Source: an uncultured delta proteobacterium (GTDB taxonomy: Bacteria; Myxococcota_A; Polyangia; Haliangiales; Haliangiaceae). From it: a stretch of DNA of 32,819 nt. Below are positions 17,985 to 29,837 of this stretch, in pieces (position 1 is the first letter of the stretch; each line of letters opens with the position of its first letter). Made by a program: the position numbers and the translations under genes. The stretch spans positions 1-32,819 of the forward strand of contig CAADGB010000182.1 of NCBI GenBank assembly GCA_900696455.1, written 5' to 3'. Under the pieces are notes generated by a model that was given only the letters and a program-made list of their open reading frames with translations, was not told the DNA's origin and searched no databases.

Positions 17985-18332
17985 CCCGCGAAACTGGGAG
18001 AGCGAATGGCCAAGGTCTGTACCCAGATCACAGAGTGGATCGAGGAGAAGGTCTCGCGGCCTGTCACGGAATGGGTCGAAGAGCGCGAACGCAAGTGCAA
18101 GAAGCTCAAGTGGTACGACCCGCGGAGATGGCTGTGCTGGGTCGTGACCAACTTCGTCAAGGTAGTGCGCTGGATCGTCTCGTACCGCCATGATTCGTGG
18201 CAACGGTGTGGCAACGAATATCGGTTTCTGGGCGTCCCGCCGACGACAACCGGACCGGAGGCCGCGGGCGCAAGACCCGTCCGGACCCGAAATCGCCGAT
18301 CGTGGAGGATCGCCGACGCCGACAACGCGAAA

Positions 18333-18357: not shown

Positions 18358-18434
<77 letters not shown>

Positions 18435-29038: not shown

Positions 29039-29500
29039 CTACGCCGTCGCCAGCGTCTTCACCATCTCGAGGGCCTCGCCGACGTGCTTGCGGGCCTGGA
29101 GCTGGGAGTCGAAGCGCATGCGGATGACGCCGGCCTTGTCGATCACGAACGTCGACCGGCCGGCGAAGAGGCCGAAGGTCTTCTTGACGCCGAACGCGGC
29201 CGCGGCGGCGCCGCCCGGATCGGTGAACAGGCGGAAGGGCAGGCGGTGGTGGCGCTCGAACTTCTCGTGGGACTCGGCCGAGTCGCGCGAGACGCCGACG
29301 ACGTCGGCGCCGGCGTCGAGGAAGTCCTGGTACTGGTCGCGGAAGGAGCAGGCCTCGGCGGTGCAGCCCGGGGTCTCGTCCTTGGGGTAGAAGTAGAAGA
29401 CGAGGGCGCGCTCGCCCACGAGGTCCTTGAGCTTCACCGGCCCGTCGGGGCCCAGGAGGGTGACGTCGGGGACGGGCGAGCCCGGCTGGAGGTCGGCCAT
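29039..29500 (-). CDS. bcp: Thioredoxin-dependent peroxiredoxin (Bcp/PrxQ)
   Basis: This 153-residue protein starts at ATG 29500. It has the Bcp active site FYPKDETPGCTAEACSFRD, with peroxidatic Cys46 and resolving Cys51 five residues later. GVSRDSAESHEKF, LFTDPGG, FGVKK and RSTFVIDKAGVI follow in the family order. It reduces hydrogen and organic peroxides in the cytoplasm using thioredoxin. The frame stays open upstream to 29713, but that part is the translated long palindrome and is not protein-like. This supports the 29500 start. The gene is separated from the TPM gene by 52 bases on the same strand. Confidence 0.97.
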   Translation of the reverse strand: MADLQPGSPVPDVTLLGPDGPVKLKDLVGERALVFYFYPKDETPGCTAEACSFRDQYQDFLDAGADVVGVSRDSAESHEKFERHHRLPFRLFTDPGGAAAAAFGVKKTFGLFAGRSTFVIDKAGVIRMRFDSQLQARKHVGEALEMVKTLATA

Positions 29501-29508
29501 GCCCGATC

Positions 29509-29691
29509 CTAGAACACCGAACGGGTCGAATGCTGTCGCGAGACGCGGACTTGTGAGGCAGATCCGGGCGCACGCCCGAAGCGCAGCGACGAGCGTAGTG
29601 TCCCTACGTGAGGAGCGAGCATCGGACGTACGCCTGGAGGTGCCCGCAAGGTCGCGTCGCGGCAGGCACGTCAACCCGTTCGGTGCTCTAG
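29509..29691. repeat. About 183-bp imperfect palindrome, MITE-like or structured-RNA element
   Basis: Base n pairs with base 200-n to 202-n (counted from 29500) almost throughout. Outer arms CTAGA-CACCGAACGGGT (29509-29526) match ACCCGTTCGGTG-TCTAG (29674-29691) with one mismatch. Middle arms include GACGCGG/TCGCGTC, CTTG/CAAG and GGCA/TGCC. Inner arms are TCCGGGCGCACGCCCGA (29563-29579) against TCGGACGTACGCCTGGA (29622-29638) with G-U and isolated mismatches. The tip CGTAG-TGTCC-CTACG is at 29594-29608. Both ends carry CTAG, which could be a 4-bp target duplication. No transposase frame is inside. It fills most of the bcp/OYE divergent gap. Confidence 0.85.
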
Positions 29692-29837
29692 CCCACGGCC
29701 GGCCGCGCCGCACCGCGATCGCCCACCTGCCGATCGACGGCGATCAGCGGCGATCAGCCGGGGGCGCGGGGACGCGCCCGCCGCGCCCGGCGCCGCGCGC
29801 ACCGATGAGCCGGCCTCGCCGTGGTATCAACCCGCCG

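Follow-up and report, generated by a model that had tools for sequence, protein, structure and literature searches.

A palindrome with CTAG ends upstream of bcp

The intergenic region of bcp and an OYE-type gene, which are transcribed divergently, harbors a long palindrome, which raises the question of whether it is a signal of these two genes, a structured RNA or a mobile element. The window, i.e. the whole stretch of 32,819 nucleotides that was analysed, is contig C182 of a Kofleriaceae-type myxobacterial assembly of 8.0 Mb in 554 contigs (G000; genomes, contigs, loci and families are numbered with G, C, L and f). The element, delimited by its copies in the own genome and in relatives, occupies positions 29509 to 29691 of the plus strand. 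It comprises 183 bp, including a CTAG at either end (29509–29512 and 29688–29691) and 175 bp between them, and it contains no gene of its own; it is thus short and devoid of coding capacity, as is typical for a MITE. Its left end is located upstream of bcp, at a distance of 8 bp from the start codon (ATG on the minus strand, 29500–29498).

The existence of a palindrome with CTAG ends at this position is confirmed by its inverted-repeat arms and by its predicted fold. The inverted-repeat scan detected outer arms of 21 nt with 90% complementarity (29509–29529 and 29671–29691), which include the left terminal inverted repeat AACACCGAACGGGTCGA (29513–29529, plus strand) and its right equivalent (29671–29687, minus strand). 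The RNA fold of positions 29489–29711 has a free energy of -135.1 kcal/mol compared with -96.9 +/- 4.9 kcal/mol for 200 dinucleotide shuffles (z -7.9), none of which reached this stability, and the z-score for the reverse strand of the palindrome is -8.4. The rarity of its ends is equally evident, because only five CTAGs occur in the window, where 29 would be expected, and the palindrome accounts for two of these five with its ends. An alignment of the arms to each other provides about 87 opposed positions with about 67 Watson-Crick pairs, five G-U, five A-C (equivalent to G-U on the other strand) and ten other mismatches. The original prediction of mostly single mismatches holds for the outer 20 bp and for the core, but not for the stretch about 22–33 bp inward from each end, where the arms pair poorly.

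Elsewhere in the window, a 29-nt inverted repeat (18255–18283 and 18366–18394, 90%) was observed. Its right arm coincides with the 3' portion of a tRNA gene (18361–18434, minus strand). Next to a tRNA pair there is a partial copy of a tRNA in inverted orientation, which may be left over from an integration.

Copies in the genome and its relatives

A genome-wide search revealed that the own genome contains about nine copies that are full or nearly so, plus fragments. Those outside the window are located on C130, C411, C302, C110, C139, C499 and C486, and one is split between C273 and C400; their identity to the window copy ranges from 84 to 94%, with 96% for the C400 half. Shorter palindromes sharing the ends of the element are present on several contigs of the same genome. 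Matches to the element were found in 17 of the 56 genomes searched (own genome counted), and G006 alone contains more than 20 copies. The relatives with the core of the element are named as Kofleriaceae, Myxococcales or Deltaproteobacteria MAGs.

Some of the copies and related palindromes have a particular context or form. The split copy (end of C273, L012 1501–1556; start of C400, L008 127–261) is interrupted by an insertion with the ends GTAAGCGCTGTGTGAACCCCAC, flanked by an 8-bp duplication (GGCAGATC), which we take to resemble the IS66 type. Several copies of G006 (L098–L101) are part of a larger repeat with the flank ...gacgggggccggccgcccg and hence spread together with this repeat and not by separate insertion. 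Both full copies in G010 (L134, L135) adjoin the CTAG end of another palindrome (...TTCAGCAGCCTG followed by CTAG), which suggests that earlier CTAG-bounded elements served at their ends as targets for nested insertion. Palindromes of about 61–62 bp (L185 2907–2968, L184 1301–1361, L054 and L058) look like the element without its core, the latter lost between GTCGC direct repeats.

Empty sites and duplication of the target

The bcp/OYE junction lacks the element in three relatives of the same genus (G002, G004 and G005), each of which has a single 4-mer in its stead. With one CTAG kept, the window reads ATGCCCGATC-CTAG-CCCACG and G002 reads ATGCGGCACT-GTGG-CCCACG, both of equal length when aligned by eye; the duplication at the window site is deduced from this length, because the empty sites of the relatives read GTGG and not CTAG. 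Sites with better conservation identify the target. A copy on C21 of G003 is located between ...GACCCGCT-CTAG and CTAG-ATATCC, and the corresponding empty site of G006 (...GATCCGCT-CTAG-CGACAG) retains a single CTAG that is the stop codon of the gene; four other relatives have GTAG at this stop codon. The anticipated empty site with one CTAG is therefore present in G006. For the C486 copy of the own genome, the left repeat is CTAG and the right one CTAT; the empty site in G002 reads CTCTA-CTAT-GATG. Another copy, on C65 of G006, starts where an acyltransferase-like gene has its native stop codon; at this place the relatives show GTG-TAG, GTG-TAA or CTGA. The closely matched empty sites stem from other species of the genus with about 75–90% identity, not from strains.

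The presence of a single tetranucleotide at empty sites indicates that the terminal repeat is host sequence that was duplicated upon insertion, and the CTAGs at 29509–29512 and 29688–29691, which form a 4-base repeat at both ends, are accordingly regarded as left and right target-site duplications. Target-site duplications together with empty sites are documented for the G003 copy on C21, for the C486 copy and, by the match in length, for the window site. Multiple copies, terminal repeats, empty sites and the 4-bp duplication bear out the original proposal of a MITE. No earlier description of the element in myxobacteria was found in the open-access literature that was searched.

An IS1182-family partner

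The ends of the element are also found on insertion sequences of the IS1182 family (NF033551). At contig ends of G003, CTAGAACACCGATCGGTTTGAA precedes a transposase N-terminus (MSRERWRPRTEY) and CTAGAACACCGAACGGTTTGAA precedes a C-terminus (LRKNLFDVRRTAAVQNLET), so that these fragments are bounded by the element's own ends CTAGAACACCGAACGGTTTGAA. The same arrangement with slightly different ends occurs in G039, whose C-terminal fragment scores 24 bits to the IS1182-family profile, which is under the cut-off because the sequence is only a fragment. The left terminal repeat of the window copy has its counterparts in G003 and G039, the right one in G003. A class-wide protein search provided two full IS1182 elements, L217 in G245 (1728 bp; ends (C)TAGAACACCGATCACGTAA / TTATGTGTTCGGTGTTCTAG, of which the first C lies outside the stretch examined) and L203 (1743 bp), with the ends CTAGAACACCGATCACGTAA and CTAGAGCGCCGATCAGGTTG; closely similar CTAG ends are present on both. 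The L217 transposase belongs to the IS1182 family (NF033551; E 1e-83, 281.9 bits versus a cut-off of 270; PF13751, PF05598). Ends in common with an autonomous element are thus documented by the G003 and G039 fragments, and similar ones by L217 and L203; all of them match the ends of the MITE and begin with CTAG, but the insertion sequences encode a transposase and the MITE does not.

The element is very probably a palindromic MITE whose ends are recognised by a separately encoded IS1182-family transposase and which inserts into CTAG with duplication of these four bases. The transposase of a separate insertion sequence would recognise the matching terminal repeats of about 18 bp and would insert the element into CTAG, thereby duplicating the tetranucleotide. 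From the ends in common we infer that the IS1182 transposase would mobilise the element in trans, and we further infer that the element benefits from its hairpin as such. No intact IS1182 transposase was found in the own assembly of the window, but the assemblies, many of them MAGs, are fragmented, and repeats of this kind are places at which contigs break. A search based on L217 in 15 genomes (the own and 14 others, most of them element-bearing), which had no positive control, likewise retrieved no intact transposase, and the partner of the window copy may therefore be lost or unassembled.

A conserved core with differing ends

The core palindrome of 97 bp (29552–29648, plus strand; element positions 44–140) was defined by an alignment of 33 sequences, and its covariance model (R1) matches 21 of the 318 genomes of the class, often in many copies and distributed over the families f1, f2, f4, f14, f21 and f22. 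Core-bearing elements whose ends could be set have a total length of 178–185 bp, apart from one of 224 bp with an extra stretch, and their outermost bases are CTAG or near to it. The terminal 20 bp or so vary around the core and represent at least five types (AACACCGAACGG, AGCGCATCTCG, GAGGCTGTTGCG, CCCGCATTATTCACC and GGGCTGTCTTTAAA). The element of G004, which belongs to the same genus, shares 84% of the core and 39/28% of the ends; in G135 from another family, 78/72% of the ends and 66% of the core are shared. This comparison reveals that ends and core do not travel together. Conversely, the ends of the element enclose unrelated palindromes of 216–252 bp in G002.

These palindromes (L157, L166, L173 and others) contain CGTCCTGAGC...GTCGAAGGACGG and amount to about 20 copies, many of them at contig ends. 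In L067, L070 and L133 (G051, G055), the ends are the same and the core motifs are swapped, with GAGGAGCGAGCAGCGG first and GCGCAGCGACGAG second.

The covariance test on homologues uncovered abundant compensatory changes. Changes on both sides affect 16 of the 30 core pairs and add up to 78 double-change cells versus 20.7 +/- 5.0 in shuffled alignments, a value that none of 500 shuffles attained, and sliding the partner by one to three columns leaves only 9–19 such cells. This excess shows that the pairing of the arms is maintained. Several opposed positions (G.G, C.A and A.G) never pair in any of the 27 full copies; their fixation indicates that the sequence itself is constrained too and that they have persisted despite any repair templated by the opposite arm. 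Of the pair columns, 29 contain G-U and 16 contain A-C, a weak bias that is insufficient to pick an RNA strand. An Rfam search with the element gave no match up to E 1, that with the whole window detected two tRNAs only, and a pattern for a core motif had no match in the window.

The conserved interior allows for a different weighting, according to which selection maintains the core as a functional motif of structured RNA or single-stranded DNA, and its spread on transposon ends is secondary. Strong covariation, the occurrence of the core in several families while the ends change, the nearly constant length of the element and the positions fixed as non-pairs in 27 of 27 copies, such as C.A and G.G, are in agreement with such a motif. 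However, Rfam offers no match, the G-U and A-C columns (29 versus 16) are decisive for neither strand, the copies are dispersed over various genes in which no shared context was seen, and repair templated by the other arm can also keep palindromes matched. We regard this explanation as improbable, though well worth considering, and a structured RNA is not needed to explain the element. Somewhat related is the concept of a modular mobile palindrome, in which a conserved core of about 97 bp, a hairpin with fixed non-pairs in an element of nearly constant length, is under selection in place of the ends, perhaps as a structured RNA or DNA signal, and the ends are exchanged among several CTAG-targeting transposon types; we put it forward tentatively, with clearly less than even confidence.

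Comparison with known palindromic elements

Judged by description, MITEPye1 of Paracoccus yeei is the known element that comes closest. According to the available part of its description (PMC11578231), it is a non-coding element of 159 bp with 18-bp terminal repeats like the ends of the IS1182 family; it has 4-bp direct repeats, an intergenic location and a predicted long stem-loop, and it is present in one to three chromosomal copies in one species. The likeness thus extends to the lack of coding capacity, the IS1182-like ends, the 4-bp repeats, the intergenic position and the stem-loop (PMC11578231). The difference lies in the cross-family core, the swapping of ends and the covariation, which that part of the description does not report for MITEPye1 (PMC11578231).

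IS1272, the best-studied member of the IS1182 family, inserts in hairpin stems without target duplication (PMC4923244, PMC5678879). IS1272 and TnSha1 share the transposase family and the link to hairpin DNA with the element studied here (PMC4923244, PMC5678879), but they delete part of the hairpin stem and generate no duplication. Insertion into a hairpin stem in the manner of IS1272 was rejected for our element, because CTAG is duplicated and the flanks beyond it are, by inspection, not inverted repeats.

REP/BIME sequences with their RAYT enzymes are comparable as dispersed palindromes of prokaryotic genomes (PMC2817692, PMC3733652), and a REP/BIME-type palindrome that depends on a REP-associated tyrosine (Y1) transposase for its movement would likewise be palindromic, intergenic and multi-copy, with tetranucleotide ends. 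Yet REP/BIME are shorter (20–40 bp versus 183 bp), have other ends and depend on a different enzyme class with no target duplication expected (PMC2817692, PMC3733652), and the 4-bp duplication and the ends shared with a DDE-type IS1182 element make this origin very improbable. That selection has preserved an ordinary transcription terminator or attenuator for bcp/OYE here is hardly credible despite the very stable hairpin and its position between two genes, since the element is located upstream of both divergent genes, is missing from three relatives in which the two genes are likewise paired, and has copies at loci unrelated to this one, in line with the initial view that it is no ordinary terminator. 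Relatives without the element and copies elsewhere rule out any terminator or RNA specific to the bcp/OYE locus.

Insertion at stop codons and implications

Among the CTAGs that flank the element, 54 of 81 terminate an open frame with a length of 100 codons or more, compared with 127 of 409 other CTAGs. The other frames at element-flanking CTAGs are also often open in this GC-rich DNA (45 of 81 and 21 of 81), and sites that are related do not count as independent, so that the count supports a stop-codon preference of the insertions without establishing it. CTAG is rare in these genomes and would often be a terminal TAG codon preceded by C; since it is often the gene's own stop, many insertions would start exactly at this native codon without altering the protein.

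The usual definition of a MITE rests on its ends, and its interior is free to decay. In the element described here, it is the interior that shows conservation, with compensatory changes across several families, and the ends are replaced. Palindromes with strong covariation can accordingly be mobile DNA and not RNA genes. If confirmed, bacterial MITEs can switch their transposase partner while the core is kept, and CTAG targeting would be a way of landing on stop codons without damage to the protein.
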